IMG/VR virus record: IMGVR_UViG_3300025009_000098
Coordinates: 1 to 64,000 of that record
Origin: a virus
DNA length: 64,000 nucleotides
Strand: one strand, 5' to 3'
Both the position numbers and the translations under genes were made by a program. Under the pieces are notes generated by a model. The model was given only the letters and a program-made list of their open reading frames with translations, was not told the DNA's origin and searched no databases. Positions 10,258 to 44,600 of the stretch are shown piece by piece (positions within the stretch are counted from its first letter, which is position 1; every line of letters begins with the position of its first letter).

Positions 10258-10581
10258 ATGCCAGTAGGATACCCCCTCACCCCGCAAACAACCGCAGCCA
10301 CCTCGGAAGTCATCGACTTAACCCGTGACCCGTTCCCGAAGACCATCTACGCCGTCGGGCCCTTTGGAGCAAACACCATCGCCGTCAATGTCGTCACCGC
10401 AGTCGATGCCAACGGCGATGCCTCGGCTGTTCTGCCCCTCTACGACGACACCGGCGCCGCGGTAACCATCACCGCCACCTCCCAGCCGTTGATGGTCGAG
10501 AGCCCGGTCCTGCTGCAGTTCGTCAAGACTGAGAGCGTGGGGGCCACCATCGGCGTCGCCCTGGTGGAAAAAGGCCAATGA
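10258..10581 (+). CDS. Small virion-type hypothetical protein
   Basis: 107 residues, low in Lys, Trp and Cys and rich in Thr, Ala, Val and Pro (MPVGYPLTPQTTAATSEVID). Predicted all-beta, typical of small head, neck or fibre-associated proteins. AAGGAG precedes ATG 10258 and ATGA overlaps the next gene. No family is recognised. Confidence 0.6.
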   Translation: MPVGYPLTPQTTAATSEVIDLTRDPFPKTIYAVGPFGANTIAVNVVTAVDANGDASAVLPLYDDTGAAVTITATSQPLMVESPVLLQFVKTESVGATIGVALVEKGQ

Positions 10582-12800
10582 GCACCGTCACCAGGAACAT
10601 CTTCAAGTCCATCTGCGGCAGGACCGGCAGGGGAGTGACCGGCGGAGCAGACCGGCCGTTCTGGGCGCAGGACCTGCAGACCGGCACCCTCCTGGCGTAT
10701 TACAAGGGAGACATCGTAGGCGGCCGCCTCCAAGCCTACCGCCCACTCGGGTCAGCCACTCCCCAGGTCAAAGGCAGCTTATTCAGCGTAGCCGTCCCCG
10801 AAGGTGTGCCCTACACCGGCCTGCTCACGACAGACGTAATCACCGCAAGCGGCACTGCCCCAACCTGCGCGGTAGATGGAACCCTGAGCATGACCGCGAA
10901 CTTTTGGGATATGTCCATCCATCGGGACGGAGCGCTCTGGGCGTACCTGCCGGGGATAAATATCGGCGCTACGTTTGAGTTGGATGCGAGCGGGAATGGG
11001 CATCACCTGTACCTTACGACTACGACGATTGTCGAGGTGGTTGATGGCACTGGGACGAACTGGTGCAATGAGATGGGATTCGCTGTGGCTGATGGGTCGC
11101 AGTATCTCAGTGATACTGATGGTGGCGTGATATTGCCAGGAAGCAGAATCCCAGTATTAATTGATGGTTCTGGTTGTGCTTCATATTCCATCACAGCAGG
11201 GGATATCCCGGAGGAAGTTGTAAGCCTGTGGAATGCTTCTACGCCTACAGCCTCTGTTTCTGGTCCTGCCCCTGAATACTCATCAGCCTCCCAGCAGCCC
11301 GACGCCAACGGCAATCTCGTTGACTGGCCGAATTACATCGCTACACGCGGAGTCGAGGTTCACCCTGCTTATACTCAGCTAGCCCAGAATAGCAAACTTC
11401 TTAACGCGGTAGCAGGCTCGCCCGGCACCGGCCCGGATAACTGGACATACACAGTAGTTGATACTCCATCCCTCGCAGTCACGGCCAGGACAGTAGGCAA
11501 TTCCCTGACGTTCAGCGGCACAGCATCGCGGGGATATCTCAGTATGACGCAGGCAATGGCTGCTCTGTCAGTCTACACGTTCTCGTTCAATGCGATCTGC
11601 GACGGTGTTCTACAGATTGACGAGATTCAGTATTGCTCGCTCACTGGCGGAACTATCGTTGTCTCAATGGACGGGGTTGTCGTTGCTGATGAGAATGCTG
11701 TACCATCTGCCGGGGTTCATGCGTTCTCAATCAAGGTTACAGCCGGGGCCGTAGGTGATACTGCTGCTTTCAGGTTTGGCCTTGGCGCGAGTGCTGTAGC
11801 GACCGGGACTGTAACGGTCTATGAGCCTCAACTTGTCCTCGGGGCCTACGTTCTGCCGTATGCGGCAAGTGGAGTGGGCGCGACTGTTGCCACTGCCTCC
11901 ACAGCAGCCACCAGCGCGGGTAATGGCCTGGCTATCCCGCTGGATGCGAGGATGAGGGAGTGCCTTGAGAGGTCAGTGACTGATGGGATGGAGTTGATAC
12001 CTAATGGTGATTTCTCTGCAGGGCTTACTGGGGGATGGACTACATCGAACTGGAGTGTAGTGGCTGGAGTAGCCATAGGAGGTAATGGAGGGGCTCTACT
12101 TACTACGAGTGCTTTTGCCGCGCAAGTTGGAAAAGCATATCTTGTAAATTTTACTGTTCTGGCAACCCAGTATCTAAACGTCAGTGTAGGTGGGGTCTCA
12201 CAAGTTTATTATGCTCCTACTGTTGTGAGTAAAGTAGTTGTTGCTACATCTACAGCGGGGATAACTTTTACCCCGGGCGGGGCGATTCCCTCCCAAATCG
12301 ACAACATCTCCATCCAGCGTCTCGCCCCCAGTGTATTCACAGCAGCAGCATTGTGCTGGATGGGAGTGGGGAATGCTGATCTTCCAGCAGGAGTGTCAAC
12401 GACAGTTCCTGTCCTAACTCTGAGAGACACCACGACAGGTCCGAGCTTTTGTCAGCAATCCTCTGGTGGACTTGGTAGTTCTCAACGAGCATTGGATGGA
12501 ACTACAGAGACAGCTATTTTTCAATCTTGGAACCGTGGAGAAGTCCACCTCAAGGTAGTTCAGACCAACGCCCTCGGCACACAGTTCCGAGTAGGCAATC
12601 GCCGATATACCAGCGCAATGGTGCCGATAGATGCGCTGACCTGGGATGTATGGGCAAACTATGATGGCAGCATGAATCCACTGACTCACTTGAGGTTCGG
12701 GTATACCAGCACAGTGCCTCTAGGATTCTTGCAGACTCAGGTGTGGAATAAGAGTTGCGCTGATGCTGAAATCCTCAACTTGTTGAGGTACGCATCATGA
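10578..12800 (+). CDS. Large fibre-like or adhesin protein
   Basis: 740 residues, Ser/Thr/Gly/Ala-rich and beta-sandwich in character. The region about 468-570 (MELIPNGDFSAGLTGGWTTS, IDNISIQRLAP) is the pattern of carbohydrate-binding modules; a similar block occurs near 280-420 (DNWTYTVVDTPSL ... YEPQLVLG). The extreme C-terminus (LRFGYTSTVPLGF ... DAEILNLLRYAS) looks LamG or concanavalin-like. It is likely a receptor-binding or sugar-binding tail protein. ATGA overlaps link it to both neighbours. Assigned from composition and motifs only. Confidence 0.65.
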   Translation: MSTVTRNIFKSICGRTGRGVTGGADRPFWAQDLQTGTLLAYYKGDIVGGRLQAYRPLGSATPQVKGSLFSVAVPEGVPYTGLLTTDVITASGTAPTCAVDGTLSMTANFWDMSIHRDGALWAYLPGINIGATFELDASGNGHHLYLTTTTIVEVVDGTGTNWCNEMGFAVADGSQYLSDTDGGVILPGSRIPVLIDGSGCASYSITAGDIPEEVVSLWNASTPTASVSGPAPEYSSASQQPDANGNLVDWPNYIATRGVEVHPAYTQLAQNSKLLNAVAGSPGTGPDNWTYTVVDTPSLAVTARTVGNSLTFSGTASRGYLSMTQAMAALSVYTFSFNAICDGVLQIDEIQYCSLTGGTIVVSMDGVVVADENAVPSAGVHAFSIKVTAGAVGDTAAFRFGLGASAVATGTVTVYEPQLVLGAYVLPYAASGVGATVATASTAATSAGNGLAIPLDARMRECLERSVTDGMELIPNGDFSAGLTGGWTTSNWSVVAGVAIGGNGGALLTTSAFAAQVGKAYLVNFTVLATQYLNVSVGGVSQVYYAPTVVSKVVVATSTAGITFTPGGAIPSQIDNISIQRLAPSVFTAAALCWMGVGNADLPAGVSTTVPVLTLRDTTTGPSFCQQSSGGLGSSQRALDGTTETAIFQSWNRGEVHLKVVQTNALGTQFRVGNRRYTSAMVPIDALTWDVWANYDGSMNPLTHLRFGYTSTVPLGFLQTQVWNKSCADAEILNLLRYAS

Positions 12801-13324
12801 GCCCAGAACTCAACAGAGGTAAACTGATCCGGGGATATTTCATCGTCAACCCAAACAAGCCCGACCGTCTATTCGGGGCGAGGTGGCTGCACTCATGGCC
12901 CTGCGGCACCTTCGTCAATGCTCAAGGCACCCTCAAGGGTGTGACGTTCTTCATGTTCTACGAGGACGAACTGAACGACCAGGCTGACGGCAGATTTAAG
13001 GAGTCCCTGGACATCGACATGCAGATGGCAGATACCATCCCGGCAGATGAGATACTGGGGGATCTGGTCAAGCGTATCCCACTCTCTGCTGCCAAGATTG
13101 CCAAACTCGACCCGCAGCAACAACTGATCATCGCTGAGAAGTACCCTACAGGATTTCTGCCCAACAAGGCTATTGTCACGAGGGACATGATTAAGCTCAC
13201 TCCGCAATGGCTTGGCAGGACACTGAAGCAGGCGATTAAGGACAGGCCGAATATCTGGCAACCAACCACAGTAGATGGGGTCGAGGTTGCGAACGTGTGG
13301 AAATGCTCATTGGAGGAACTATGA
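12797..13324 (+). CDS. Hypothetical protein of the fibre cluster
   Basis: 175 residues, mixed alpha/beta, soluble, no signal peptide. N-terminal GKLIRGYFIVNPNKPDRLFGARW, then helical PADEILGDLVKRIP and LDPQQQLIIAEKYPTGF. Coupled to the fibre gene by ATGA, so possibly a fibre chaperone or assembly factor (inference from position). No family is recognised. Confidence 0.55.
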   Translation: MSPELNRGKLIRGYFIVNPNKPDRLFGARWLHSWPCGTFVNAQGTLKGVTFFMFYEDELNDQADGRFKESLDIDMQMADTIPADEILGDLVKRIPLSAAKIAKLDPQQQLIIAEKYPTGFLPNKAIVTRDMIKLTPQWLGRTLKQAIKDRPNIWQPTTVDGVEVANVWKCSLEEL

Positions 13325-13650
13325 TACGATCACCAATAACCACACCCGGCCCCCTCAACGTCTCAGCCACCATCACAGCAGGCACCACCTACCCGGATAT
13401 CACGATCAAGGCCCCCCTCGGCCCGAAGTTTCAGGCAATCACCGGCTTGACGAACAACGCCGCCATAGACCTCGCCACGTTTGTCAACACGGATCAGGTG
13501 ATATTCGGACCACGTGGCGGGTTTATTTACAAAGATGCTGTATCGGCAGCAAAACTGGCGCAGGCTGAACAGTATTTAGGGGTTGTCCCTGTACCTCTTG
13601 AGATGCCAGATACCTTAGAAATGACCGATACTTTGGAGATGAGAGAATGA
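13321..13650 (+). CDS. Small beta-rich protein with DTLEM repeats
   Basis: 109 residues. Start ATG 13321 is fixed by ATGA overlap with the previous stop; an earlier in-frame start is rejected. The body is Thr/Ile-rich and the C-terminus carries three near-repeats (PLEMP, DTLEMT, DTLEMR). Its stop overlaps the next start (ATGA). Likely virion-associated; function unknown. Confidence 0.55.
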   Translation: MIRSPITTPGPLNVSATITAGTTYPDITIKAPLGPKFQAITGLTNNAAIDLATFVNTDQVIFGPRGGFIYKDAVSAAKLAQAEQYLGVVPVPLEMPDTLEMTDTLEMRE

Positions 13651-14960
13651 AAAAATCTATTTTAATATTGGCAATATTGCTGCTTACGTCTCCCGCCTTC
13701 GCAGCGCAGCAAACCTTGACCGGGGGAATAGGTGCAACACATCAGTGGTCTGTCCAAAAGGGCAGAATCAACGACAATTTCACCGAGCTTTACGGCTGGA
13801 CCGGCCAGGGGTTGACCACTACCAGTTCGCCAGCATTTACAGCAGTCTCCCTCGGAGTTGCCAGCACAACGTATGGCACACTTGATCTGTATGGGACGAC
13901 TTACGCCAATCCGTTTCGACTGTGGACATATGGCGGTGCGGTTCCGAGCGTAGGGTGGCGACTCCCATCAACTCTGCCAGCCGGGACGTATTTGATTACA
14001 TCAACCGTCAACGGATATCTTGACTATCTCGACCCTGCAACATTTCTCACGCCCTCAGGAGTTGGTGGTGCGCTAACCGTCACGGCAACCGGATTCGATG
14101 GCAACCTTGCCACGACTGACAATACAGTGCAGGAGATTGCACAGAAACTTGATGATCTGGTAGCAACAGGCAGCCCAGCCGACGACACAGCATACAACGC
14201 AACCTCATGGGATGCCAATACCGACGCGGCAACGAAGAATGCCATCCGTGACAAAATCGAAACTCTTGCCGGCGGGCACGATGCTGCAACAATCAACGCC
14301 ACGGCCAACGGCCTGACCATTACCGGCCAGGAGATTGCCTTGGGCCTCGCATCAACCAGCACGATAGGGGCGCTGAGTGATACCGACTGGGATACATTTA
14401 ACAACAAGGTCAGTTACACTCCCGCCACTCCCGGCGCGATAGGCGCGACAACTCCAGCGGCAGGCACGTTTACGACTGTCACGGCAGCGTCATATGTCTC
14501 TAGCGCGGCAGACGGTAGCAGATATACCATCCTGCCGAATAATGCCAGCATTGTCCCACTTGCCGATGGCTCTGAGCAGATATACAACGAGGGCGGGCAG
14601 ATCAAGGTGGTAGAGGCCGACCTTGAGGCTGAGATAACAACCACCATTGCATCCGGCATGGTCGAACTGAATACAACTACCGTTGCAGCTTCTGGAGTGA
14701 TAGCTGATGATGCATGTCAGCTTCTGGCCTCCGCTCAAACGGCAACAAATGCCCTGGCTGCATCAGACGGCGTTGACTTTTATTTCATTGGAGATCCGAC
14801 CTCAAAACTCGGATTTGCAGCAACCGGAATGTTGACCCTGATCCCCTTTGTCAGCGCAGACAACGCTGTCCAGGTGCGGGTCTGTAACCAGACAGGGGCC
14901 AGTATAACCCTGAACACAGCAGGCAATGGGGCCACGATTAAATGGGCGGTGCGGAGATGA
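13647..14960 (+). CDS. Fibre-like protein with a Sec signal peptide
   Basis: 437 residues. MKKSILILAILLLTSPAFAA is a textbook signal peptide with cleavage expected after AFA. The mature part has tail-fibre filler motifs (LTTTSSPAFTAVSLG, WDTFNNKV, TPAAGTFTTVTAASY) and a compact C-terminal beta domain (about 330-437). Tail-fibre proteins are normally cytoplasmic before assembly, so export is unexpected. Coupled to both neighbours by ATGA. Could be a surface protein of infected cells or a secreted adhesin. Confidence 0.65.
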   Translation: MKKSILILAILLLTSPAFAAQQTLTGGIGATHQWSVQKGRINDNFTELYGWTGQGLTTTSSPAFTAVSLGVASTTYGTLDLYGTTYANPFRLWTYGGAVPSVGWRLPSTLPAGTYLITSTVNGYLDYLDPATFLTPSGVGGALTVTATGFDGNLATTDNTVQEIAQKLDDLVATGSPADDTAYNATSWDANTDAATKNAIRDKIETLAGGHDAATINATANGLTITGQEIALGLASTSTIGALSDTDWDTFNNKVSYTPATPGAIGATTPAAGTFTTVTAASYVSSAADGSRYTILPNNASIVPLADGSEQIYNEGGQIKVVEADLEAEITTTIASGMVELNTTTVAASGVIADDACQLLASAQTATNALAASDGVDFYFIGDPTSKLGFAATGMLTLIPFVSADNAVQVRVCNQTGASITLNTAGNGATIKWAVRR

Positions 14961-15541
14961 TTCTCAGACTGATTCTTGCCATACTCCTGCTTCCATCTCT
15001 GCTCTATGCCGGGCAGGGATGTGGCCCTGGGCCTGGGTTTGCGATGCCTGCTGCGGCCTCGTGCGAGACTGTTGAGCAGTCAGCCACTGTAGGGACAAGT
15101 GCTACGACCGTAGGCAATGGGACAAATCTCAAACTTTCTCACAGTTTTCTTGCTTCGTCTACCTATAATCTGTGTAAAGCCATTTACAAAATGGCCAAGA
15201 CAGGCTCCCCCACATTCGACATTGCGGTTGAGCTGTGGTCCGATAATGGATCTGCTGTTCCTAATGCTAAAATCGGAGACCTTGGGACTATAAATGCTGC
15301 CGGTCTAGCCTCAGACGCAGCCCCAGAAGATGAGACTTTTACCATAGCCTCACCGATAGCCCTAACCAGTGGGGTTCGGTATCATGTCATCTTTTCGGCT
15401 GCCACGGGCGGCGATGTATCAAATTACGTCAGGGTGTATCGATCGACATCTGGAACTGAGAAGCTTTACTTTTGGACTGGTGCATCGTGGGGCACTGCGA
15501 TAGATGGTAGCTCCACACTATACTACTACCATTATAAGTGA
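14957..15541 (+). CDS. Exported beta-sandwich protein
   Basis: 194 residues. MILRLILAILLLPSLLYAGQ is a signal peptide, followed by a Cys-Gly-Pro segment (GCGPGPGF). The mature domain (FLASSTYNLCKAIYKMAKTG, FDIAVELWSDNGSAVPNAKIG, ALTSGVRYHVIFSA) resembles jelly-roll domains of the kind found in phage fibre and carbohydrate-binding proteins. ATG 14957 overlaps the previous stop (ATGA); an earlier in-frame start is rejected. Confidence 0.6.
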   Translation: MILRLILAILLLPSLLYAGQGCGPGPGFAMPAAASCETVEQSATVGTSATTVGNGTNLKLSHSFLASSTYNLCKAIYKMAKTGSPTFDIAVELWSDNGSAVPNAKIGDLGTINAAGLASDAAPEDETFTIASPIALTSGVRYHVIFSAATGGDVSNYVRVYRSTSGTEKLYFWTGASWGTAIDGSSTLYYYHYK

Positions 15542-17313
15542 TTATTATGAAATCCATTTTAATAGTCGTCCTTCTCCTGCTTAGTTTTACAGAAGCATCG
15601 GCAGATTACACTATCCCTAAAGGTATCCCTGACCCTGCCGGTTCTTTTGGCGTATTCGATCCGATTGACGACCCTGCGCCTGTGGTCAATGGGGATGGAA
15701 CAAGTACATATTGTCCGAACTGGCCAAGTGCTGTCTCGACCGCCCCTAATTGCTACTATGTGGATAAAACCGCCGTGGGGTGCGACAACGATGACGCTGG
15801 CACTCCTGCCGATCCTCGCTGTACTCCACCCGAGGGGACGTTGCAGGCTGGGACATTTGTCTATATCCATGCCGGGACATATTTAGCAACAGACTCAGGA
15901 GGGCAAACTCTTGACTGGAACGGGGCGGGTACGGCTGAAAGTCCTATATGGATAGTCGGCAACCCAGTTACAAAACCTATTATCCAAGATCTCGTCGGGA
16001 TAGGGTGGGGCTACTCTGCATCCTATATAGTGGTTGAGAGTTTGGAGTGGAGCGGATACACAGGAACAGGGCTATTCTCAATCCGTCCACTGACAGATAC
16101 CCACAATATAGATCATATTGTTATCCGTAACTGTACTATGACCGGGACAGGGGCAAATACAGATGGGGGAGCACTTAACATTGGTGCAAGCCAGGACACT
16201 GACGAAGCACCTCTCAGCGTTATACAATATATAGTTATATACAATAATACTATCTCAAATATATCCAGACTTGCTGCAGATGAGACAGGAGATGATTGCG
16301 CTATTTACCACGCATATCATGTTGATAGTGTCTGGACCCTTGGGAACACGATTCACTCTATTCAGGAGGATGGCATTGCTGGGAGTCACTACAGCGATGC
16401 CAGTAGGACTACGACAAATCTCTACATAGGAGGGAATACCCTCTACAATTTTGGTGCAAATGCGATTGACCTGAAATCTGTTCAGGGATTCGTCATATCA
16501 GAAAACGATATGTCTATGCCAAATGTAAAGTTGGTCGGCCCTGGGGCTACACTGATAATTCACAACGCTGCCCTCGCGGCACCGAGCACACCTTGCACGG
16601 ACGGATGGATACTTTTTAATAAATTCCATAACCTATGTGGGGGAGTCGGATTTGTTACGGGATCAGCGGTGGAGGATATGTATGTTGTTGGTAATGAGTT
16701 TTGGGATATTGATACAGACAACTGTGTTGGGGCGGAAGGAACCTATCCTGGCAGAGCGATATTGATAGCCTCAATGATAGGCAATGGCTGGATTGTTGAT
16801 AATACTTTTTATGATAACGAATCCCCAATATATATGGAGGGCACGTGGGGTACAGCTAATATCAAAATTCACGGCAATATATTCGGTAATATTAATGAGG
16901 ACGGGTACGATATTAATACCAACACCAGATATACATTAGTTGATATGGATTACAACCAGTTCTATCATCCGATAGGCGGCGCAGCAGCAAAAATCTACTG
17001 GGACGGCGCAAGCAGAAATCTGGCCTATATGCAGGGTGTTTCTGAATGTACAAACTGCGACGAGGGCGACCCGCTTCTTTTCAATCCACCATCAAACCTA
17101 TCGCTGCAATCCACATCTCCTGCTAAAAATGCCAGCGTTGAGGGGCCGGTGGGTGGGACGGTTTATGACCTCTTCTTCGCGACGTATGGGATCAGTATCG
17201 AAAAAGATTTCGTCGGCACTGCCAGGCCGATAGACGCATGGGACATCGGAGCCTACGAGTACAACGAGGCAACCGCCCCGCAATCGCTCGGGACGGTCCT
17301 GCTCGGTCAATAA
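15538..17313 (+). CDS. Exported right-handed beta-helix protein, possible polysaccharide-degrading enzyme
   Basis: 591 residues with an N-terminal signal peptide (MKSILIVVLLLLSFTEASA). From about residue 120 onward there are short beta-strand coils in register (HIVIRNCTMTGTG, YIVIYNNTISNIS, NLYIGGNTLYNFGANAIDL, GFVISENDM), the hallmark of parallel beta-helices of pectate-lyase or tailspike type. Substrate and activity cannot be read. The start is either GTG 15538, giving the same 4-nt overlap as its neighbours, or ATG 15547; neither has a good ribosome-binding site. A depolymerase role for host capsule or extracellular polysaccharide is plausible. Confidence 0.7.
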   Translation: MIIMKSILIVVLLLLSFTEASADYTIPKGIPDPAGSFGVFDPIDDPAPVVNGDGTSTYCPNWPSAVSTAPNCYYVDKTAVGCDNDDAGTPADPRCTPPEGTLQAGTFVYIHAGTYLATDSGGQTLDWNGAGTAESPIWIVGNPVTKPIIQDLVGIGWGYSASYIVVESLEWSGYTGTGLFSIRPLTDTHNIDHIVIRNCTMTGTGANTDGGALNIGASQDTDEAPLSVIQYIVIYNNTISNISRLAADETGDDCAIYHAYHVDSVWTLGNTIHSIQEDGIAGSHYSDASRTTTNLYIGGNTLYNFGANAIDLKSVQGFVISENDMSMPNVKLVGPGATLIIHNAALAAPSTPCTDGWILFNKFHNLCGGVGFVTGSAVEDMYVVGNEFWDIDTDNCVGAEGTYPGRAILIASMIGNGWIVDNTFYDNESPIYMEGTWGTANIKIHGNIFGNINEDGYDINTNTRYTLVDMDYNQFYHPIGGAAAKIYWDGASRNLAYMQGVSECTNCDEGDPLLFNPPSNLSLQSTSPAKNASVEGPVGGTVYDLFFATYGISIEKDFVGTARPIDAWDIGAYEYNEATAPQSLGTVLLGQ

Positions 17314-17325
17314 CAGGAGAAAACC

Positions 17326-17664
17326 ATGAAAAGAACGCTTTGCATCATCGCACTACTTATGATGTCAGCCTGCACGATGAACCAGCGGGAGACGCACATA
17401 AACTTTACAGCCGGGACAAGCCTGAAGGTCGAGGCCAACGGTGCGACCAATGCCACCGAGACAGGCCAGACCGCAAATGGGGATTTCTCCGGGCTGGTTG
17501 ATGCGGTGTCGAAGTGGGTCGAGGAAAACATGGCCGGGATAGTCGGCAAGCTGAAAGTTACCGATCTGGTAGACGAGAGCAAGCTGGTCGAGCCAGAAGC
17601 CCTTGACGATAAACCCGCCGCCGTCAGCCCAGCCGGGCAAGGCGAGTTTGAGGAGATTGAATAA
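17326..17664 (+). CDS. Small lipoprotein
   Basis: 112 residues. MKRTLCIIALLMMSAC ends in a lipobox (MSAC), so the mature chain starts at Cys16 and should be lipidated. It continues with a beta segment (ETHINFTAGTSLKVEANGAT) and a helical, acidic tail. AGGAG precedes ATG 17326. Phage lipoproteins include spanin outer-membrane subunits and superinfection-exclusion proteins. This one is longer than typical o-spanins and not proline-rich, so its role is open. Confidence 0.65.
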   Translation: MKRTLCIIALLMMSACTMNQRETHINFTAGTSLKVEANGATNATETGQTANGDFSGLVDAVSKWVEENMAGIVGKLKVTDLVDESKLVEPEALDDKPAAVSPAGQGEFEEIE

Positions 17665-18284
17665 TGGCTACCTGTCCAACGTGCGGCCAGAAGATACCTG
17701 ATGTCGTTGTCCCTCAGCCGGGAATAAAACCCTACCCGCTCAAGGTGATTTTCGACAAGACATCCGACCAGGGCACGGGTGAATACCATGGTACTTCCTG
17801 CCTCCTGCTTGACCCTGGCATGGTAAAGGTTACGCTGAACGGCGAGGTTGCATTCAAAGGTAATCCGTACAAAGGCAAGGATGTCTGGCGATTCAAGAAA
17901 GTAGGTGATGCCTACCCTAAGCCTTGGAATTTCGTCTTTACCCACTCGACAGGTCAGCAGTATTCATATGTGATCAATGAGTCTGGTGGTACTCCTGCAA
18001 ATCCCGACACGCCGACTGGCGGAAAAACATTGACCGTCAAAAATTCAGGTCAGGCAAATGGGAATAGATCACACTTCCGCTTTCCTTCAAAAGTTGCGGT
18101 CTATGGAAACTTCAGTTTTTCGTTCGATGGCGGGAAGGTCCACTATGTGACGGCTGAGCAAGTGAAGGATGGCAGGCATGAACCTGGCGGCGGGGTGCTC
18201 GTAAAGTCTCCGGACAATCGGGGAGGTACAGCTATTCTTGGTGAGTACGGCAAAACATATAAAAGCTGTACCCTGAAATGGTGA
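17664..18284 (+). CDS. Zinc-ribbon protein with beta domains
   Basis: 206 residues. CPTCGQK at residues 4-10 is a zinc-ribbon half. Two beta-rich domains follow, separated by a Gly/Pro/Thr linker (GGTPANPDTPTGGK, about residues 108-121). The second (FPSKVAVYGNFSFSFDGGKV) could be a sugar-binding domain. No signal peptide. The start overlaps the lipoprotein stop (TAATG). Function unknown. Confidence 0.6.
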   Translation: MATCPTCGQKIPDVVVPQPGIKPYPLKVIFDKTSDQGTGEYHGTSCLLLDPGMVKVTLNGEVAFKGNPYKGKDVWRFKKVGDAYPKPWNFVFTHSTGQQYSYVINESGGTPANPDTPTGGKTLTVKNSGQANGNRSHFRFPSKVAVYGNFSFSFDGGKVHYVTAEQVKDGRHEPGGGVLVKSPDNRGGTAILGEYGKTYKSCTLKW

Positions 18285-18288
18285 GAAT

Positions 18289-18525
18289 ATGAACGAAGGG
18301 CTGTTGACCAAAGGCTACAAATCGACCGACTTCTACCTTGTCGCTGCCGTGGTCCTGCCGTGGGTCTGCAACCAACTCGGCATCGATGTCGGGGCGCTGC
18401 TGCAAGGCGCGGAGCAGATGCGCCAGGAAATAAAAGTGGTGCATGGAGGTTCTGATCTGCCGGTGGTTGTAGCTGGTGTCTATGTCGTTGTTCGGGGATG
18501 GCTGAAACATAAACGGATGGTCTGA
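18289..18525 (+). CDS. Holin-like small membrane protein
   Basis: 78 residues with two hydrophobic segments (FYLVAAVVLPWVCNQLGI and VVVAGVYVVVRGWL) and a basic end (KHKRMV). The size, hairpin topology and position at the start of the lysis block fit a class II-type holin. The assignment is inferred from topology; no conserved holin motif exists. Confidence 0.55.
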   Translation: MNEGLLTKGYKSTDFYLVAAVVLPWVCNQLGIDVGALLQGAEQMRQEIKVVHGGSDLPVVVAGVYVVVRGWLKHKRMV

Positions 18526-18662
18526 TGGTCATCTGCTGGTACTGCGGATGTGATTATATCGGCCCAAACTGCCCAATCTGCGGATATCCGCCAACGAATG
18601 ATTGCGATGACTACGAGGTGAATCATGAGGGTGATTCCAGAGGCGAATCTTACAATGAGTGA
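18525..18662 (+). CDS. 45-aa zinc-ribbon peptide
   Basis: MVICWYCGCDYIGPNCPICG: C4-x2-C7 and C16-x2-C19 make a complete zinc-ribbon knuckle pair; an acidic tail follows. The start shares its A with the holin-like stop (TGATG). Very small stand-alone ribbons are common in phage operons; partner unknown. Confidence 0.55.
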   Translation: MVICWYCGCDYIGPNCPICGYPPTNDCDDYEVNHEGDSRGESYNE

Positions 18663-18828
18663 TAGAAATGACGATGGCCTTCATGGCGTGAAGGACAGGT
18701 ACTGTAAAGACGACAGCAGTCTATGGTGTTTCGCTTTTGACTGCAACGGGCGGCAAGGTAAGTCTTGTGACAGGTTTTCGATGATTTCAACAGGCGTTAA
18801 ATTTTGCGCTGACGAGAAAAAGAGATAA
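18625..18828 (+). CDS. Small cysteine-containing hypothetical protein
   Basis: 67 residues from ATG 18625 (GAGGTG 4 nt upstream), overlapping the previous gene by 38 nt. Alternatively 57 residues from ATG 18655 (8-nt overlap). Four cysteines lie in the body (DRYCKDDSSLWCFAFDCNG, KSCDRF) and one near the end. It may fold as a small disulphide or metal-binding unit. No family recognised. Confidence 0.5.
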   Translation: MRVIPEANLTMSDRNDDGLHGVKDRYCKDDSSLWCFAFDCNGRQGKSCDRFSMISTGVKFCADEKKR

Positions 18829-18833
18829 AAAAC

Positions 18834-19307
18834 ATGCTTAAACAAATAGCCCTCGTCATATGGTTCATCTTCTTTCTCACATTCCCAGCCTACGGGATGC
18901 AGGCCAAAGTCTTCCAGGTTATCGACGGTGACACCATCAAAGTAATTTCTGCCAATGGATTAAAGACCATCAGGCTCTACGGAGTCGATTCTCCAGAGAA
19001 AAAGCAGGCGTTCGGGCTGGCGGCCAAAGACTTCACCTCAACTTTTATCGACGGCAAGACCGTTGATGTAACTCCGATAGATACTGATCGCTACGGTCGC
19101 ACAGTGGCAATCGTCATGCTTGGGACGCAGTGTCTTCAGGAGCAACTCATCCTCGCCGGTTACGCCTGGGTCTATCCAGCCTATTGCAAAAAATCATTCT
19201 GCGGGGCATGGACTACTCTGCAGGGTATCAGCGCTGGCAACCGGGTTGGACTGTGGGCCGGGCCTGTGCCGGTGCGACCTTGGGAGTGGAGACGGGCACA
19301 GCGATGA
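18834..19307 (+). CDS. Secreted thermonuclease (SNase family)
   Basis: 157 residues. A signal peptide (IALVIWFIFFLTFPAYG) precedes a complete staphylococcal-nuclease domain. Catalytic and Ca-binding residues map as D33 (DGDT), R47, D52, E55 (RLYGVDSPE) and R89 (DRYGR), equivalent to D21, R35, D40, E43 and R87 of SNase. It cleaves DNA and RNA outside the cytoplasm. In a phage it could degrade extracellular or host DNA, or block superinfecting genomes in the periplasm. ATGA overlaps the next gene. Confidence 0.85.
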   Translation: MLKQIALVIWFIFFLTFPAYGMQAKVFQVIDGDTIKVISANGLKTIRLYGVDSPEKKQAFGLAAKDFTSTFIDGKTVDVTPIDTDRYGRTVAIVMLGTQCLQEQLILAGYAWVYPAYCKKSFCGAWTTLQGISAGNRVGLWAGPVPVRPWEWRRAQR

Positions 19308-19831
19308 ACTACGTCAAAATAGCCTGCTGGGGAGCAATCCTGACCGTCCCTGATTTCCTTGCTAGAGTCTGGCCGTATGACCTGTTGCCAGAGGAATGGC
19401 CGACGTTCTGCGGATCAGGCCCTGGACTGGGTGATGCGATTGTCCCTGACAGTATCCATGGTGTAAGAATATCCCCGGCTTGTCTAGTCCATGACGTAGA
19501 GTGGGCAATTTCTCCAAACACATTTCCAGAGTTTATGGGGGCAAATGGCAGGCTGTTCCTGAACAGTGTAGCCCTGATCATGGCATCTGATTTGTCCACA
19601 TGGCAAACTATCCGGGCAATGAATCGAGCGATGACGGCATACCTCACGGCGGTTTGTACGGTAGGTGTTCTGTTTTTTTCATGGTTTTCAAATCGGCATG
19701 AGGCTATTGACCCGCTCAATCATCCAATCGTCAAGGCGCGATTGAGACAGATTACCGAAGCCCGCGGCAAGATAGATCGAGGCGGGTACGAAGAAGACCC
19801 ATATGATGCATGGGAAGGGACTGAGATATGA
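19304..19831 (+). CDS. Phospholipase A2-like protein
   Basis: 175 residues from ATG 19304 (ATGA overlap with the nuclease); earlier in-frame starts are rejected. C60-x2-H63-D64 in RISPACLVHDVEWA matches the PLA2 active-site pattern (C-x2-HD), preceded by a Gly-rich loop (CGSGPGLGDAIVPD) that could bind calcium. A hydrophobic segment near the C-terminus (AYLTAVCTVGVLFFSW) suggests membrane association, followed by a charged tail. It lies in the lysis block, so membrane phospholipid attack is a reasonable role. Assignment is by motif only. Confidence 0.5.
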   Translation: MNYVKIACWGAILTVPDFLARVWPYDLLPEEWPTFCGSGPGLGDAIVPDSIHGVRISPACLVHDVEWAISPNTFPEFMGANGRLFLNSVALIMASDLSTWQTIRAMNRAMTAYLTAVCTVGVLFFSWFSNRHEAIDPLNHPIVKARLRQITEARGKIDRGGYEEDPYDAWEGTEI

Positions 19832-20544
19832 TACTGAGAGATGGCAAGACGATAACTGAAGATCCACGTTGCGGGCTCATCCCGCAGGAGGACACCAGGG
19901 CCGAGCACCTCTTCGCTGCTGCGCCACCGGATGGAGGTATCGACCTCAGTCTGCGGGAACTTATTTCAAAGCGCCGGGTCAAGAAATTCGGCGATCCGCT
20001 CCTCAATCAAGAGCAATGGTCAGCATGTGCTGGGATGACGATGGCGGCAGCACTCGAACATGAGCCCGGAATCCGAACTATGGGGTCTGAATGGGCGATC
20101 AATTTCTACTTCGACGCACAGGACCATGATTCTTTCCCCGGCAGCGAAAGGCCAGGCGACCCGATTCAGGGTTACGGGACATCAATGGTGGCAATCTGCG
20201 AAGAAGCCAAACGCCAGGGGTTGATCAAAAACTGGTATCGGGCACACACCATCGAAGAGGTCATTATCGGCCTTGGGTACTATTCATGTCCTTTATTTGG
20301 TTTTGAGTGGACCGATGGAATGATGTATCCGAATCACAAGGGCCTTTCCGTCCCGACCGGCAAGACCGTGGGCGGCCATGCTCATCTCGGGACGTTCGTC
20401 AATCTGCGGGATGGCTTGCTCGGCGGGCCTAATTCGTGGGATGGCTGGAACCCGGCACAAAATGGCTTCTGGGTAATGAAGATATCGGATGTCGAAAACA
20501 GGCTGCACCATGGCGGAGAGTGTGTTTTTCTGGAAAAAGTGTAA
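19828..20544 (+). CDS. Papain-like cysteine peptidase
   Basis: 238 residues. NQEQWSACAGM places a nucleophile C67 with an upstream Gln (oxyanion hole), GGHAHLG gives H184, and PNSWDGWN gives N202 with the NSW-x-GW signature of C1-type peptidases. All catalytic residues are in the expected order. No signal peptide. Coupled to the PLA2-like gene by ATGA. Possible roles are cleavage of peptidoglycan peptides (CHAP-like) or of host proteins. Unusual in a phage lysis block. Confidence 0.7.
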   Translation: MILRDGKTITEDPRCGLIPQEDTRAEHLFAAAPPDGGIDLSLRELISKRRVKKFGDPLLNQEQWSACAGMTMAAALEHEPGIRTMGSEWAINFYFDAQDHDSFPGSERPGDPIQGYGTSMVAICEEAKRQGLIKNWYRAHTIEEVIIGLGYYSCPLFGFEWTDGMMYPNHKGLSVPTGKTVGGHAHLGTFVNLRDGLLGGPNSWDGWNPAQNGFWVMKISDVENRLHHGGECVFLEKV

Positions 20545-20579: not shown

Positions 20580-21005
20580 ATGACAGCAGAACAGCATGTA
20601 GCAAAGTGCAGTTATGGAGAAGATGGAATGTGTGCTTTGCATGGTGTTGAGGTTGAGCGGCGCAAAGGTATGGAAGCCTTGACGGATAATATTCCCAAAA
20701 TGCTATCTTGGCAGAACAGAATAGTTGGATGGTCTCTGCTTGTTACTGTATTTGTAATTGGGGCGTATGCTTACACGAATCAGATTAAGAATGAAATGAA
20801 GGTACAGTACGCAGAAGGAATTGGGTCTACTGCTACTGAGATTAAAATTATGACAAAGCAACTCGAGCAGTTGTCCAACGGCCAAGCCAGGACGGAGGAG
20901 CGATATGCCTCCCTGCTGAGATCAATAACGGAGCTGAGCTCCAGCGTCAATACTTTGACCTACCTGCAGTTTGAAAAGAAAGAGGAGGCGAAGAAACCCA
21001 GATGA
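20580..21005 (+). CDS. Membrane-anchored coiled-coil protein (lysis-associated)
   Basis: 141 residues: N-terminal Cys/His cluster (KCSYGEDGMCALHG), one transmembrane helix (WSLLVTVFVIGAYAYT, about 51-66), then a long helical, coiled-coil-like tail (TATEIKIMTKQLEQLSN, LLRSITELSSSVNTL). This layout resembles holin or spanin accessory proteins next to lysozymes. ATG 20580 (GGGGTG upstream) is preferred over 20562. Confidence 0.55.
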   Translation: MTAEQHVAKCSYGEDGMCALHGVEVERRKGMEALTDNIPKMLSWQNRIVGWSLLVTVFVIGAYAYTNQIKNEMKVQYAEGIGSTATEIKIMTKQLEQLSNGQARTEERYASLLRSITELSSSVNTLTYLQFEKKEEAKKPR

Positions 21006-21172
21006 GCACCGCCCAAAGGATCCAGGAACTGCTTGACTGCGCTGTCCGTGTACCTGAGAAGGACGCGGCCGGTATCATTACCGCCGCCGGCATCGATGCC
21101 CAGGTCAGAGTCAAGGCCCTCAATGACTGCCTGAAGATTGCTCAGGATGAGGAGAAACATGAGCGTGATTGA
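21002..21172 (+). CDS. 56-aa helical hypothetical protein
   Basis: MSTAQRIQELLDCAVRVPEK and 36 more residues, predicted helical. The start overlaps the previous stop (ATGA), and its end overlaps the lysozyme start by 14 nt, with GAGGAG for the lysozyme inside it. Function unknown. Confidence 0.5.
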   Translation: MSTAQRIQELLDCAVRVPEKDAAGIITAAGIDAQVRVKALNDCLKIAQDEEKHERD

Positions 21173-21557
21173 CGACCTCAAGAAACACGAGGGGTTCAGG
21201 GCCAAGCCCTACCGGTGCTCGGAAGGTTTCCTTACAATCGGCTACGGCCTCAACCTCGACGCCGGCATTACCAGGGACGAAGCGACTATGCTGCTCGAGC
21301 ACCGGGTCTCAGTCCTGCAGGACGTACTGGCAGTGCGGCTGTCGTTCTGGTACCGGCTCACTCAAGCTAGAAAAGACGTGTTACTCAATATGGCCTACAA
21401 TCTCGGGGTTGCCGGGTTGCTGGGATTCAAGACGACGCTCAGGCTGGTCTCTGAAGAGAACTACACGGAGGCCTCCAAGCAGATGCTGAAAAGCAAATGG
21501 GCAAAACAGGTAGGCGGTAGGGCTCTCTGGCTGTCCAACAAGATGCGAGAGGGTTGA
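21159..21557 (+). CDS. Phage lysozyme, GH24 (T4-lysozyme type)
   Basis: 132 residues. E11, C20 and T26 (HEGFRAKPYRCSEGFLTIGYG region) match the E-x8-D/C-x5-T triad of GH24 muramidases with Cys in place of Asp. YNLGVAGLLGFKTTL and WLSNKMREG are typical later segments. It cleaves peptidoglycan glycan strands at lysis. No signal sequence, so a holin is needed; the candidate is 18289-18525. ATG 21159 with GAGGAG is chosen over an upstream in-frame start. Confidence 0.9.
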   Translation: MSVIDDLKKHEGFRAKPYRCSEGFLTIGYGLNLDAGITRDEATMLLEHRVSVLQDVLAVRLSFWYRLTQARKDVLLNMAYNLGVAGLLGFKTTLRLVSEENYTEASKQMLKSKWAKQVGGRALWLSNKMREG

Positions 21558-21768: not shown

Positions 21769-21946
21769 CCGCGCCTGGGACCTGCAGGAGATGCACCTGA
21801 AGCATATACTGCTGAACCGTCCGCAAATGGTCGGAGAGTCCCGGACCCACTGTCTGGAGTGCGAGGAACCAATCCCCGAGGGGCGCAGGCGGGCGGCACC
21901 GGGGTGTCAATACTGTGTACAGTGCGCTGAGGAGTTGCAGGGATGA
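21752..21946 (+). CDS. TraR/DksA-type zinc-finger protein
   Basis: 64 residues: helical N-terminus then C-x2-C (CLECEEPIP), RR spacer and C-x2-C (CQYCVQC), the TraR/DksA zinc-finger pattern. Full DksA has a long coiled-coil; this short phage type resembles TraR. Known TraR binds the secondary channel of RNA polymerase and alters promoter use. Here it could tune host or late transcription. Confidence 0.75.
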   Translation: MADQLDRAWDLQEMHLKHILLNRPQMVGESRTHCLECEEPIPEGRRRAAPGCQYCVQCAEELQG

Positions 21947-22878
21947 TAAAGCAAGGGGGAGTATATCAGATTGTCAATACCGAGAACGGCAAGCGGTATA
22001 TTGGGAGTGCTAAGTGTTTCCGGGTCAGACGGGGAGTACACTTTCGGCTGCTCACTGCCGACAACCACCACGCATATAAGATGCAGGTGGAGTGGAGCCA
22101 CTACCCTACTGAGGCGTTCAAGTTTGAAATTCTGTTGATCTGTGCCCCCAAAGACTGTCTGTACTACGAGCAGAAGTTTCTGGACTTCTTCAAGCCTGAG
22201 TACAACGTGAACCCTACAGCACAGAGCAGGTTCGGAGCGCGGAATACTGCGGAGCATTGCAGGAAAATAAGCGAGGCGCATAAAGGTAAGACCTACGACG
22301 CCGCCAGAACTGCGCAGATACGTGCTACACTGCTTGAGAAGGACACTGGTAAAAGGTACAAATGCAACGGCAAGGTCATGAGTATTCGGAAGGCTTCTGA
22401 TGTGTTTGGAATCTCGTATAACGTATTGCAGCACAGAGTGAAAATATATGGGAGCCTTCAGGCAGCAGTAGACCATATCCCAACTAGCGTGGACGAGATA
22501 CGGCAGAAAGCCTATGAAGCCTCCCGAGCAAACGCAACAAGGGTTGAATGCAACGGCGAGTTTAAAAGCATCCCAGAGTGGGCGAAGTTTTTTGGGGTGG
22601 ATAGGCGAAGTCTGTACAAGAAAGTCCACAATGGGATGACTGTGGCGCAGGCGATTGCCAGCTTCAAGGCTCCGCTTACTATCACACTTGATGGAGTCAC
22701 TAAGGCGATCACAGAGTGGGCTGCTGAGACCGGGCTTACCATGAACACCATTAAGGGCAGGCTCAAGCGCGGGTGGAGTGCCAGAGATACCTTGACCATC
22801 CCCAGAGGAAAACAAGGCATGGATGTGCGGAAGTCGTATCATGCTGATAGTCAGGCTCAACAGAGCATTGGAGCATAA
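21943..22878 (+). CDS. GIY-YIG endonuclease, homing type
   Basis: 311 residues. N-terminal GIY-YIG nuclease (GGVYQIVN and KRYIGSA at about residues 5-23, with a Glu in YYEQKFLDFF). The C-terminal part has repeated DNA-binding modules similar to NUMOD/HTH units (KVMSIRKASDVFGISYN, EFKSIPEWAKFFGVDRRSL, AITEWAAETGLTMNTIKGRL). It lies 1 nt into terL (TAATG) and 4 nt after the DksA-like gene. A free-standing homing endonuclease placed against terL is a known pattern in phages. Confidence 0.85.
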   Translation: MIKQGGVYQIVNTENGKRYIGSAKCFRVRRGVHFRLLTADNHHAYKMQVEWSHYPTEAFKFEILLICAPKDCLYYEQKFLDFFKPEYNVNPTAQSRFGARNTAEHCRKISEAHKGKTYDAARTAQIRATLLEKDTGKRYKCNGKVMSIRKASDVFGISYNVLQHRVKIYGSLQAAVDHIPTSVDEIRQKAYEASRANATRVECNGEFKSIPEWAKFFGVDRRSLYKKVHNGMTVAQAIASFKAPLTITLDGVTKAITEWAAETGLTMNTIKGRLKRGWSARDTLTIPRGKQGMDVRKSYHADSQAQQSIGA

Positions 22879-40555: not shown

Positions 40556-41647
40556 ATGGCATATTTGACACCGGAAGAGAGAATAGCAGCTGCCGTCGAA
40601 AGTGGCTGGCGCGGATTGGCCAACCGTTTCGGTACCGCCCGGGCCGGCACGCCGCAGGAAAAGTTCAACGCTCCCCCCGAACCTCCGCCGGCCGTTGCTC
40701 CGGCAGTCGCCCCCGCCGAGCGGGCGAAGGTGAAGGCCAACAGCTTTACTACCACCCTCCCCAATCAGGACCTTACGGCGAATCACAGAGGGTTACGCGC
40801 AGCCCCCGCCGCTCCTGTCCGTTCCGTACCGACCAGCAATTTCATCATGGATAAGTCAACAGGCAACACTGTGTCGATGAATCCAGACGGAAGTATGCGC
40901 TGGTCCGACGTTGCCGGCGAGACGATCGCCCGGCCGCAGGCCCCAATGATCGAGGCTCGTCCCGCCACCTCTGGAATGGTCCGGCCCACCGCCCAGATCG
41001 ACCGCTACAATGCCGCCCAGGAAGTCCCCCGCGGTCAGTTCTTCGGCGTGCGGCCGCTGCCCGGCGCCGGCGGAGACAACCTCACAGACAAGAGTATCGG
41101 CGGGCTGGTAGTAGACGGCATCAGGCAGCGCAGGGCTCAGATCGCCGCCACCCAGGACCTCACCGCCAGGGGGCAGGACGCCGAGCTTGTCGCGGCCGGG
41201 ATGCGGGAGCGCACCGCCGGGGAGCAGAACAGGATCCTCGCCGAGCGGGCCACTTCAGAGATGGGCCTTGATCGGGCGCAGACTGCCGCCGCCGAGCAGG
41301 AGCTGGCCCAGGCCGACGAGGTCAGAGGGTTGATTGATCAATTTGACACTGAGACCGATAAGGGCATCCGCCAGCGCCTTAAGGAGCGGATCAACCTGTT
41401 GACCGGCCGGAAGGAGGAACAGATCGCGCCGCACTTCACGACTGAGGAACTGCAGGGACTCGAGGGCGGATCGCGGGGGGTGGTGATCGTCCCTGACCCG
41501 GCCGCACCCGGAGGCTTCCGCAAGATTGTACCGCAAGAGAGCGGAGGTTCGGCGCTGCCGCCGGTAGCCGACCGGGTCGAGGGTAAGGTCTACCCCTTGC
41601 CGCAGGGTAATTTCAGATGGGTCAAGGGTAAGTGGGAGGCCGAGTAA
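40556..41647 (+). CDS. Helical, proline-rich virion protein
   Basis: 363 residues. Pro/Ala-rich segment (NAPPEPPPAVAPAVAPAE) after a short helical start, then long helices (ELVAAGMRERTAGEQNRILAE, IRQRLKERINLLTGRKEEQI) and a C-terminal beta end (YPLPQGNFRWVKGKWE). AAGGAG precedes ATG 40556. Ahead of the giant protein; may be a co-ejected internal protein. Confidence 0.6.
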   Translation: MAYLTPEERIAAAVESGWRGLANRFGTARAGTPQEKFNAPPEPPPAVAPAVAPAERAKVKANSFTTTLPNQDLTANHRGLRAAPAAPVRSVPTSNFIMDKSTGNTVSMNPDGSMRWSDVAGETIARPQAPMIEARPATSGMVRPTAQIDRYNAAQEVPRGQFFGVRPLPGAGGDNLTDKSIGGLVVDGIRQRRAQIAATQDLTARGQDAELVAAGMRERTAGEQNRILAERATSEMGLDRAQTAAAEQELAQADEVRGLIDQFDTETDKGIRQRLKERINLLTGRKEEQIAPHFTTEELQGLEGGSRGVVIVPDPAAPGGFRKIVPQESGGSALPPVADRVEGKVYPLPQGNFRWVKGKWEAE

Positions 41648-44600
41648 TGGCTTACACCGATGAGGAACTTCTCGCCCTGCCGGTAGCCGGCAAGACATCG
41701 TTCACTGACGAAGAACTGCTCAATATGCCGTCTTCGGCAACTGTCCCACCGCCGGCCGGCATCCGCCGTTCCGCAACCGGAGAGATAGCCACCGGGTTAA
41801 AGCGCGGCGTCATTGGCGAATTGCCCAGGATGGTCGGGCAGGCAGCCAAGTGGGCAACGGAGCCAGCGTCGGGCATTTACAGGAAAGGGCAGCAATTAGT
41901 TACGGCCGCTGACGAACGTCTCGCCAGACCTGAGAACCAGCTTAATCCGGAAGGCCACAACGTCGTCACCAACGCCCTCGCCTCCGGCGCGGAGATGCTC
42001 GCCCCGTCGGTGGCTATCCCGGCAGCGACTGGACTCGCTCTGGCAGCGGCTCCGGAGGTAGCAGTCAGTGGCGCCGTAGGCTTAGGGATTGCCTCTCTGG
42101 CCGGCGCAGTGCCGATGGGCATGGCGCAGGCGCAGGATACTTTCGAGAATGTCAAGGTTGCAGGCGGAACGGATGAGTCGGCACGAGCCGCGGGCTGGAA
42201 GTCCGGAGCAATTGAGGCCGGCGGCGAGACCGTCGGCACATACCTCGGCGGAAAGCTGCTGGGCATAGGTGGCAAGGTACTCGCTGGGGAAGGAGTATTG
42301 AAGCCTTTCGCCAAGCAGTTAGGCAAGACCGCAGTCGGCGAGGTCGGCACCGAGATGGGCCAGAGCTACGGCGAGGCCGCAGTGGAGAAAGGCGCCGGAG
42401 TGAATGTCGATCCATGGCAGCAGGCTAAGGCCGCCATAGCCCCGACCCTCGGCATGACTGCCCTGCTGTCACCGTTCGGACTTGCCGGGCAATATCGCAA
42501 CTCCAGACGGGCTCGCGCTCAAGAAGTCCTCGACGATACTCCAAGCGAAGACCCGGTAACCGACCGGGTGAGTGGCGAGCTGCTGACCACCCTGCTGCCC
42601 GAGGGCATAGTCCTCAACGGCACCAAGAACAGCATGGCCAATGTCAGTTTCCCAACCGCCGACGGCCAGAGCGCGACGATCAATATCCCGATCGACGAGG
42701 TCAGTAAACTCCTCGCCGCCAACAAGCCGGACGAGATCGCTGCCGCCCTTGAGTGGGTCGAGCAGGAGCGGGCGGCGAAGATTTACAATAAGACGAAGAA
42801 CCTGCCGACGGAAGATTACTCCGGCGTCACCCTGCCCGGGACCATCGAAGACAAGACAATCAGGGGTCTGGCGCAGGGCGGGATGCGCAGCTTGACCACC
42901 GACGCGGCCAAGGCGCCGGCCGAGCAACTGCTGGCAGAGGCCGAGGAGGCCATGCAGCGCCGCAGGGCTGAGTTGTACAACCAGACCCGTAACCTGCCGG
43001 CAGAGGACTACTCGGGCGTGGAGGTGCCGCCGTCCCGGCAGCAGCCCTCCCCCGGTCTCGGGATGCGCTTCAGCCAGCCGCCGGTAAAGCCGGATGTCAG
43101 CAAGACCCCGGTCACCGGCTACGAGGCCGATCTGGTCAAGGTCGCCGACACCCTGGGCAACGAGCACTTCGTCCAGAAACGCGAACTTGCCGGCAAGGGC
43201 AAGGAGATCGCCCGCTATACCGAGGACGGCCGGAGAACGGTTACCACCATCCCACGTGCTTCGCTGGTGCAGTCACAGCCTGCTACTGTGAATTACACCC
43301 GTCTTCCCGACGACCCGGCCAAACCCGACACGGTGCAGTATAATGTTAGGGGAGAAGTCCGCACTTTCGCTCCGGCGGAGGGGATGAGCAAGGCGGAGGT
43401 CGAGGAGGCCCTCGCCGCCCGGAAAGGCCCCGGGTCGCAGGTTGCCTGGTTGCAGAAGAATACTGTTGAGGTGAAGGATGAAGATCAGCAAGCGGGGGCT
43501 ACGCAGGCTGAAGTTAAAACCGATCAAGCTGGACCTGTCGAACCTACAGCCGCTGCCTCTGGATCTGGCGTGCAACCGCCAGCCGCAGAAATCCATACTG
43601 CCACCGGAGATGGTAAAGCTGAAGTAGCCACCACTGCAGATGCGCCCCGGCCGAACAGAAAGTATAGCGACGAGGAAGCGGTAAAAGGGTTGCAGTACAA
43701 ACGGGAGGGGCATACTGGAGATATGCAGAACATCCTGGATATAACTGAAGAGACGGTCGAGGTAGCACAGGTAGCTGTCAAAGCAGGCGAGTCACTGCAG
43801 GATGCGTATGACAGGTATGTGTCATTCACAAGAGGGTACCCAGATGTCAGTATTGAGGGGTTCGCTGATATTTATGCTAATGTAGGCGGTGACATTGGAA
43901 CGCAAAAATCAGTATCTATCGGCAGGAGTATTACCGAGAACGCTGCAAAAGCTCCTGCCGTAGAGAAAAGCACCCCCTCGGCCTCTGCCAAGGCACCGGC
44001 AAGCCCACCGCAGGGGGTCACTTCTTCCGAGGAAGTCTACAATAACGGCGGCACTGGTGAATTGATGCTGCTGAGGAAAAGGTCTGATGGACTTGTAATG
44101 TTGCAAGATACCAAAGACAACGTCCTCGGCACGTTCCCCGATGCGAAGCAGGCAGCAACCACAGCGAAAGAGATGGGCTATAGTTGGCGGGATGAGACCG
44201 GCCAGTTGCCCAAACGCTCCGCTGTGGAGAAGCCTACCAAGGCCAAGGCAGCCAAGCCGAAGCCCGCAGCAGCCAAACCCCCCACCCTCCCCGGCGTTAA
44301 GTACGACGGCAAGAACCAGTTCACCATCACCGAGGGTAAAGCCAAAGGTGCGTCGTTCACTGTCAAGGACCTGAGCGAACAGGAAGTCAAGAAGGCCCAC
44401 GACAAAACGGTCAAGGGGTTCGTCAGGTCGAAGACTGCCCCCAAGGCCTCCGTTGTCGCCCGGGTCGCGGCCAGGAAACACGAGATGCTCGCCCCCACCG
44501 TGGCCGAGATCATCGCCGAGGACGGCACCAAGGAGTTCAAGCGGGTGCCTTCAGTCGAGGTCTACACCGCCCTCGCCGAGGCGCGCCGGCAGGCAGACCC

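Follow-up and report, generated by a model that had tools for sequence, protein, structure and literature searches.

The 64,000-nucleotide stretch of viral DNA analysed here (the window) is part of the 65,168-base IMG/VR virus record IMGVR_UViG_3300025009_000098 and carries, from position 13647 to 20544, a block of genes for fibre-like and beta-helix proteins with predicted signal peptides (SPs), a lipoprotein, a staphylococcal-type nuclease (SNase) and further predicted hydrolases (Table 1). Genes were identified with a gene caller written for the analysis; numbers preceded by L and G denote viral loci and records, respectively. The block continues a coupled run that begins with the SP-less fib740 and passes through g12797 and g13321 to F437, BS199 and BH591, with ATGA or GTGA start/stop overlaps at 13647–13650 (g13321/F437), 14957–14960 (F437/BS199) and 15538–15541 (BS199/BH591). 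The overlapping 3′ end of g13321 supplies the ribosome-binding site of F437. Behind BH591 follow LP112, g17664, a holin-like gene, a Cys-rich gene, SNase, and the genes for a PLA2-like protein, a papain-like protein, a membrane-anchored protein and a lysozyme; farther downstream lie the terminase, portal, head and tail genes and that of a giant 2,718-aa protein. A first-pass annotation of the sequence had the coordinates and gene order of the block right. The single ATGA-coupled run that it described is borne out by the overlaps at 13647, 14957 and 15538, but the chain is broken at LP112, which begins 12 bp past BH591; BS199 starts at 14957 rather than at 14942; and g17664, the holin-like gene and the Cys-rich gene, all inside the block, had been passed over.

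Table 1. Genes of the block and its immediate flanks in the window.
Feature	Position	Strand	Description	Basis or remark
fib740	10578..12800	+	Tail-fibre-like protein without SP; upstream, cytoplasmic counterpart to the predicted exported set	Weak match to phrog_12940 (tail fibre)
g12797	12797..13324	+	175-aa fibre-cassette protein without SP	Partial homologues
g13321	13321..13650	+	109-aa protein without SP	3′ end overlaps F437
F437	13647..14960	+	SP (cut after A19) and tail-fibre-like modules	N-terminal match in L211; SP-bearing relatives
BS199	14957..15541	+	SP and beta-sandwich, choice-of-anchor R domain	NF041539 at cutoff, 4.2e-7
BH591	15538..17313	+	SP and right-handed beta-helix	Start at GTG 15538 or ATG 15547; C-terminal GTVLLG tag
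LP112	17326..17664	+	Small acidic lipoprotein (MMSA/C)	Lipoproteins at same position in nearly all relatives
g17664	17664..18284	+	Predicted tandem beta-sandwich	No SP in window, SP in most relatives
Holin-like gene	18289..18525	+	Small membrane protein	Hydrophobic segment; 53–56% identical homologues in L048, L059
Cys-rich gene	18625..18828	+	Conserved, 67 aa	42–81% identical homologues in most relatives, invariably immediately upstream of SNase
SNase	18834..19307	+	SP and staphylococcal-nuclease domain, conserved CX4C	PF00565, 1.2e-18
PLA2-like gene	19304..19831	+	PLA2-like protein without SP	Motif only; one likely membrane segment
Papain-like gene	19828..20544	+	Papain-like cysteine peptidase without SP	phrog_16701, 5e-17
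Membrane-anchored protein	20580..21005	+	Coiled-coil-like	Hydrophobic segment, charged tail; homologues in L057, L063, L069–L071
Endolysin	21159..21557	+	Phage lysozyme	PF00959, 1.1e-15; phrog_7

Export signals were predicted with a home-made, rule-based program (not SignalP), which recognised 10/10 exported E. coli proteins and 0/5 non-secreted ones. Five of seven block genes scored positive, against one weak call among the 71 other genes of the window (hypergeometric p = 5.8e-6), and shuffled N-termini gave 1.25 positive calls per 78 genes; the clustering of predicted export signals in the block is therefore real. The signal-bearing genes lie between 13647 and 19307 and have Sec- or lipoprotein-type signals: F437 (MKKSILILAILLLTSPAFA/AQQT, the slash marking the predicted cleavage site), BS199 (MILRLILAILLLPSLLYA/GQGC), BH591 (MKSILIVVLLLLSFTEASA/DYTI), LP112 (MKRTLCIIALLMMSA/C) and SNase (MLKQIALVIWFIFFLTFPAYG/MQ). 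These are the same five proteins that the first-pass annotation had credited with such signals. The PLA2-like and papain-like proteins and the lysozyme have no SP. Dual start sites, giving an exported and a cytoplasmic isoform, were rejected, because inspection of the exported genes for internal start codons preceded by a ribosome-binding site turned up none. The Cys content of the exported proteins is mildly elevated (1.17% versus 0.87%), an excess that is not decisive for disulphides.

The first three exported proteins form a triad with features of fibres and spikes. Downstream of its predicted cleavage site, F437 (from residue 20) continues as AQQT...INDNFTELY; an SP-less protein encoded in the tail region of L211 naturally begins in this way (MAQQTI...KINDNFTELY). 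Despite this resemblance, the F437 N-terminus matched no tail-anchor family. Relatives of F437 in L053, L056, L059, L061 and L065 all carry an SP. The domain found in BS199 belongs to the choice-of-anchor types, which are named for bacterial surface proteins. BH591 has a weak match to choice_anch_Q (4.6e-4), full-length homologues (~30%) in L119, L120 and L121, of which the one in L121 is a Pfam Beta_helix protein, and C-terminal matches elsewhere. The relatives of fib740 share its N- or C-terminal half and none has an SP; partial homologues of g12797 lie beside fib740 in L044, L050, L063 and L068 and are also found in L062. The final triad gene carries a terminal tag (17290–17313 in the window), GTV(P/L)LG-x-(M/P)R or GTVLLGQ, that is common to L053, L056, L059 and L061. 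The tag sits on a separate short open reading frame (ORF) in L053, and its bearers, the L056/L061 proteins and the beta-helix proteins, are apparently unrelated and of different folds; Gly-rich tails or repeats end other triads (L065, L120, L122 and L128). The tag is a candidate that could serve in docking or sorting.

LP112 gave chance-level matches only against NCBIfam and none with PADLOC, and its relatives are often Pro-rich at the C-terminus. What looks like a conserved acidic C-terminus was discarded as a protein feature, because its GAGGAG codons, immediately ahead of the g17664 start, probably serve as the ribosome-binding site of that gene. The AF2 model of g17664 (mean pLDDT 77) consists mostly of strands, and a fold search returned no significant match, the non-significant ones being mostly Ig-like. 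The g17664 domain occurs in L064 as a fusion with a lipoprotein.

Judged from its sequence, the SNase assignment is sound. D31, D33, T34, R47, D52, E55 and R89 are invariant in 11 relatives, and within the OB-fold D33, R47, D52, E55 and R89 are the equivalents of Asp21, Arg35, Asp40, Glu43 and Arg87; the window protein has Ser at the Thr41 position. The earlier call of a secreted nuclease with its catalytic residues thus holds, with secretion as a prediction. A search with SNase found 76 loci in viral contigs. In 21/21 relatives the N-terminus is signal-like, with 12 strict calls and nine that have an AxA-like site and no positive charge and were called transmembrane (TM). The signal sequence is poorly conserved in comparison with the well-conserved mature domain, which suggests selection for export and not for sequence, and the conserved CX4C cysteines would suit an oxidising compartment.

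The label of the PLA2-like protein stands as regards its motif (GxGxGxxD...HD, invariant in 13 homologues), but its identity is not confirmed, the protein having no Pfam or PDB sequence match. A second small protein with a PLA2-like motif (SPACxxHD; L225 8457–8789, in record G016) occurs in the L041 phage, far from SNase. The papain-like peptidase, also proposed before, retains invariant Cys67 and His184 and an Asn that is kept in all homologues except two (Gln), and has a weak PDB match to the C1 protease 3ois (1e-4). Together with the lysozyme, these two proteins look like part of the lysis region and would act in a compartment other than that of the exported set. The membrane-anchored protein between them and the lysozyme is a possible inner-membrane spanin or holin accessory.

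Approximately 21 non-identical relatives keep the block neighbourhood together while its middle genes are swapped. Exported or hydrophobic N-termini were found in 80/153 block genes of 21 related loci and in 9/213 genes outside, although the accompanying p value of 2e-27 is indicative only, because the genes are related and not independent. The swapped stretch extends from the capsid or fibre genes to SNase, and its replacement genes (Fn3-like, beta-helix, LamG-like or fibre-like) are again mostly predicted to be exported: L053, L056, L059, L061 and L065 have fibre triads, and L044, L048, L050, L063, L066, L068 and L070 have just one small exported Fn3-like protein. In nearly every case the next genes are those for an exported lipoprotein and g17664, with SNase after them. 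A major-capsid-like protein (~307 aa, by eye) is encoded close upstream of the block in L053, L056, L059, L061, L063 and L066, so that the fibre-export-lysis module is apparently mobile among phages of differing gene order. At 2987–4540 of L066, an SP-less beta-helix protein with the same DIGAYEY C-terminal region occupies the fibre slot; its C-terminus is apparently fused to a g13321-type protein, in a non-exported fibre cassette.

The triad is not confined to these relatives. Clustered exported proteins of the same three kinds (a large fibre-like protein, a 200–300-aa sandwich protein and a beta-helix protein) occur in the unrelated phages of L120, L121, L122, L128 and L129 and, less completely, L119. 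In L121 six exported genes stand side by side, of which two encode lipoproteins as judged by eye or by rule. The heads of the triads are lipoproteins in L041, L067 and L121, and homologues can differ in whether they carry a lipoprotein or an ordinary signal (L041 against L061, 1e-16). The clearest case is L122, which is record G001 (38,992 bases, with terminase, portal, tail and internal virion proteins). Its triad lies between the internal virion proteins and a holin-like gene, in the fibre-gene slot of a T7-type phage, and its head consists of an SP followed by Phage_T7_tail (PF03906, 28.1 bits versus a cutoff of 25.2; phrog_1640, 5e-30), a domain that in HTVC010P and phiV10 begins within ~10 residues of the start without a signal. 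Similarly, the L041 protein at 7055 has a signal ahead of the KITDLT...VDVSDTT-type domain with which SP-less proteins in L027, L029 and L034 begin. With F437, signals thus stand exactly in front of bare virion-fibre N-terminal domains in three cases, and so, as far as the sequences tell, fibre-type genes have repeatedly gained signals, or lost them.

We regard it as possible, though somewhat short of probable, that the block encodes a late exported set of adhesins or spikes and a nuclease, derived from fibres, that acts on the envelope of the dying cell and on what surrounds it. Late in infection, the presumed time of expression, the host Sec machinery would export the fibre- or spike-derived F437, BS199 and BH591 together with LP112 and SNase, and these proteins would gather in the periplasm and outer envelope and be freed together with the progeny. 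The adhesin and beta-helix proteins would attach to or cleave the surface polysaccharide acting as receptor, thereby masking or removing it (enzyme activity beyond the SNase and papain-like families is presumed), and SNase would degrade DNA. Jointly, they would stop further adsorption to the infected cell and to debris, would clear debris and would free virions more easily. The PLA2-like protein, the papain-like protein and the lysozyme would be held back in the cytoplasm and, once the holin has opened the membrane, would finish off the envelope. Exopolysaccharide digestion, nucleic-acid scavenging and exclusion, as put forward in the first-pass annotation, may be among the functions of such a set.

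Several observations argue for this late exported set, among them the clustering of the signals in the block, their reappearance on most of the genes swapped into it in relatives and the SP-less fibre that the window and L065 have in addition to the triad. The lipoprotein heads of L041, L067 and L121 fit membrane attachment better than virion assembly in the cytoplasm, and the interchange of lipoprotein and ordinary signals, the fusion of g17664 to a lipoprotein in L064 and the recurrence of the triad in unrelated phages point the same way, as do the exported receptor-blocking proteins that are known from positions right after phage fibre genes. Other findings weigh on the opposite side. Predicted export rests on the home-made predictor; no polysaccharide lyase, hydrolase or other carbohydrate-active family was recognised among the exported proteins, which matched Beta_helix, LamG and choice-of-anchor families only; and g17664 has a short Cys-containing N-terminus in place of an SP in the window as well as in L044, L048, L056, L059 and L066. 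Two further observations fit a fibre of the virion better: the exported L122 fibre is the sole PF03906 copy in the seemingly near-complete G001, and no fib740 homologue was found in L053, L056, L059 and L061, which are incomplete records.

The proteins could accordingly be real virion fibres or spikes that pass through Sec, fold in the periplasm (possibly with disulphides) and dock onto tails when holin and endolysin mix the compartments, an explanation that is doubtful but a serious contender. It would account for the signals directly in front of bare fibre N-termini (the PF03906 domain of L122, the L211-like start of F437 and the domain shared with L027, L029 and L034), for the occupation of the fibre slot by the exported triad in L053, L056, L059 and L061 and for the SP-less beta-helix in the same slot of L066. 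Normally, tail fibres are intracellular products and tailed phages assemble in the cytoplasm. Fibres added in the periplasm would be a departure for which a literature search gave no precedent; lipoprotein forms would be tethered to the membrane; and the exported genes offer no internal start for a cytoplasmic form. Other SP-less fibre-like proteins are present in the window, L065, L067, L119, L120 and L121; neither the window nor L065 needs the exported set as its sole fibre, each having an SP-less fibre beside the triad. The first-pass annotation had suggested that the set differs from ordinary virion fibres, which usually lack SPs. The general statement is true of the cultured fibres that were checked, and the distinction gains from the retention of signals in relatives and from the lipoprotein versions of the fibre-like protein; it loses from the exported counterparts with N-terminal domains of the kind that usually fixes a fibre to the tail, which keep a virion role in contention. 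Because F437, BS199, BH591 and their relatives carry signals, we do not class them as ordinary tail fibres. The broader proposition that some tailed phages hold Sec-exported receptor-binding fibres or spikes in the periplasm and fit them to tails only at lysis seems rather unlikely.

It is improbable that the block is simply an extended lysis region, with LP112 and the TM coiled-coil protein as spanins, SNase, the PLA2-like protein and the peptidase degrading DNA, membrane and proteins, and the exported fibre-like proteins as passengers. The adjoining holin-like gene, lysozyme and membrane-anchored protein, the Pro-rich C-termini of LP112 relatives and the joint conservation of SNase, PLA2-like protein and peptidase (mostly 50–70% identity, and before terL and portal in several relatives) are in keeping with this idea, but LP112 lies 3 kb from its putative inner-membrane partner, adjoining g17664, and the exported triad, signals included, also persists in phages where no comparable lysis enzymes adjoin it. 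That the hydrophobic N-termini are membrane or assembly anchors or start-codon artefacts, and not export signals, is highly improbable: in 9/21 SNase relatives no positive charge precedes the hydrophobic stretch, and ribosome-binding sites are weak at some starts, but charge, hydrophobic core and AxA site recur in unrelated genes and lipoboxes in others, the pattern stays while the sequences diverge, and good alternative starts are lacking.

Either outcome would be unusual. Action of the exported proteins beyond the virion would mean that phages have recruited receptor-binding proteins of their own as secreted tools against competitors and debris; a place on the virion, as fibres, would mean that a tailed phage has one part made outside the cytoplasm, contrary to the standard picture of assembly. 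The two possibilities make opposite predictions for virion proteomics. The recurrence of the triad in uncultured phages of unrelated kinds points to a general feature, possibly missed because well-studied cultured phages are without it.

The portal protein (phrog_332) has its closest isolate homologue in Pseudomonas phage Rollin (39%). No DNA match among cultured phages was found for 10–22 kb of the window, and a search of cultured-phage proteins with F437, BH591, the PLA2-like protein, the L121 beta-helix protein and a 752-aa protein of L041 gave no match. Two metagenome-derived virus records hold identical or near-identical copies of the region, one of which may be a sibling assembly of the window record itself. 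SNase relatives in genomes are mostly from Desulfobacterota, Elusimicrobiota and Bacteroidota; the closest ones inspected look chromosomal, have no cassette and were set aside as a clue to the host. Searches for PF03906 and g17664 in 395 genomes of one such phylum, made with no positive control, returned nothing. Directly before the large terminase gene lies a GIY-YIG-like ORF (21943–22878, by eye), a distant homologue of which is on the opposite strand near an SNase gene in L078. The giant protein (41647–49803) has weak polyvalent-protein domains (LPD39 and ART-PolyVal) and probably belongs to the virion proteins that are ejected.

Phages are known to encode exported proteins and exclusion cassettes, and a literature search gave no account of SPs on tail fibres; apparently new here, and not found described in the literature searched, is the recurrent triad of exported proteins built from tail-fibre or spike domains. 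T7-type fibres (PF03906) and podovirus tailspikes share with it the fibre N-terminal domain (in the L122 counterpart), shaft-like modules, beta-helix and gene position, but the triad has a Sec or lipoprotein signal in front, and its products are predicted to exit the cytoplasm. Secreted PF00565 nucleases have the fold, active site and SP of the window SNase, and signals are also found on the phage SNases of L074, L090, L092 and L101–L103; the window group differs in being a fixed partner of the exported fibre block and in its conserved CX4C. A PADLOC defence search matched the SNase domain only. Phages T1, HK022, N15, ES18 and phi80 encode receptor-blocking exported lipoproteins and companion membrane proteins directly downstream of their tail-fibre genes (PMC13164509), and Llp of T5 inactivates the receptor of that phage (PMC9586334). 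The cassettes of T1, phi80 and N15 (Cor and two membrane proteins) and T5 Llp resemble the window set, in which LP112 and its counterparts are exported small lipoproteins downstream of fibre genes, in having exported proteins, including a small lipoprotein, directly after fibre genes and in being exchangeable between unrelated phages, a likeness of position and type and not one of compared sequences. In contrast to these early-acting cassettes, the window set is large, consists of proteins of tail-fibre or spike type, includes a nuclease and, judged by gene position, is apparently expressed late.

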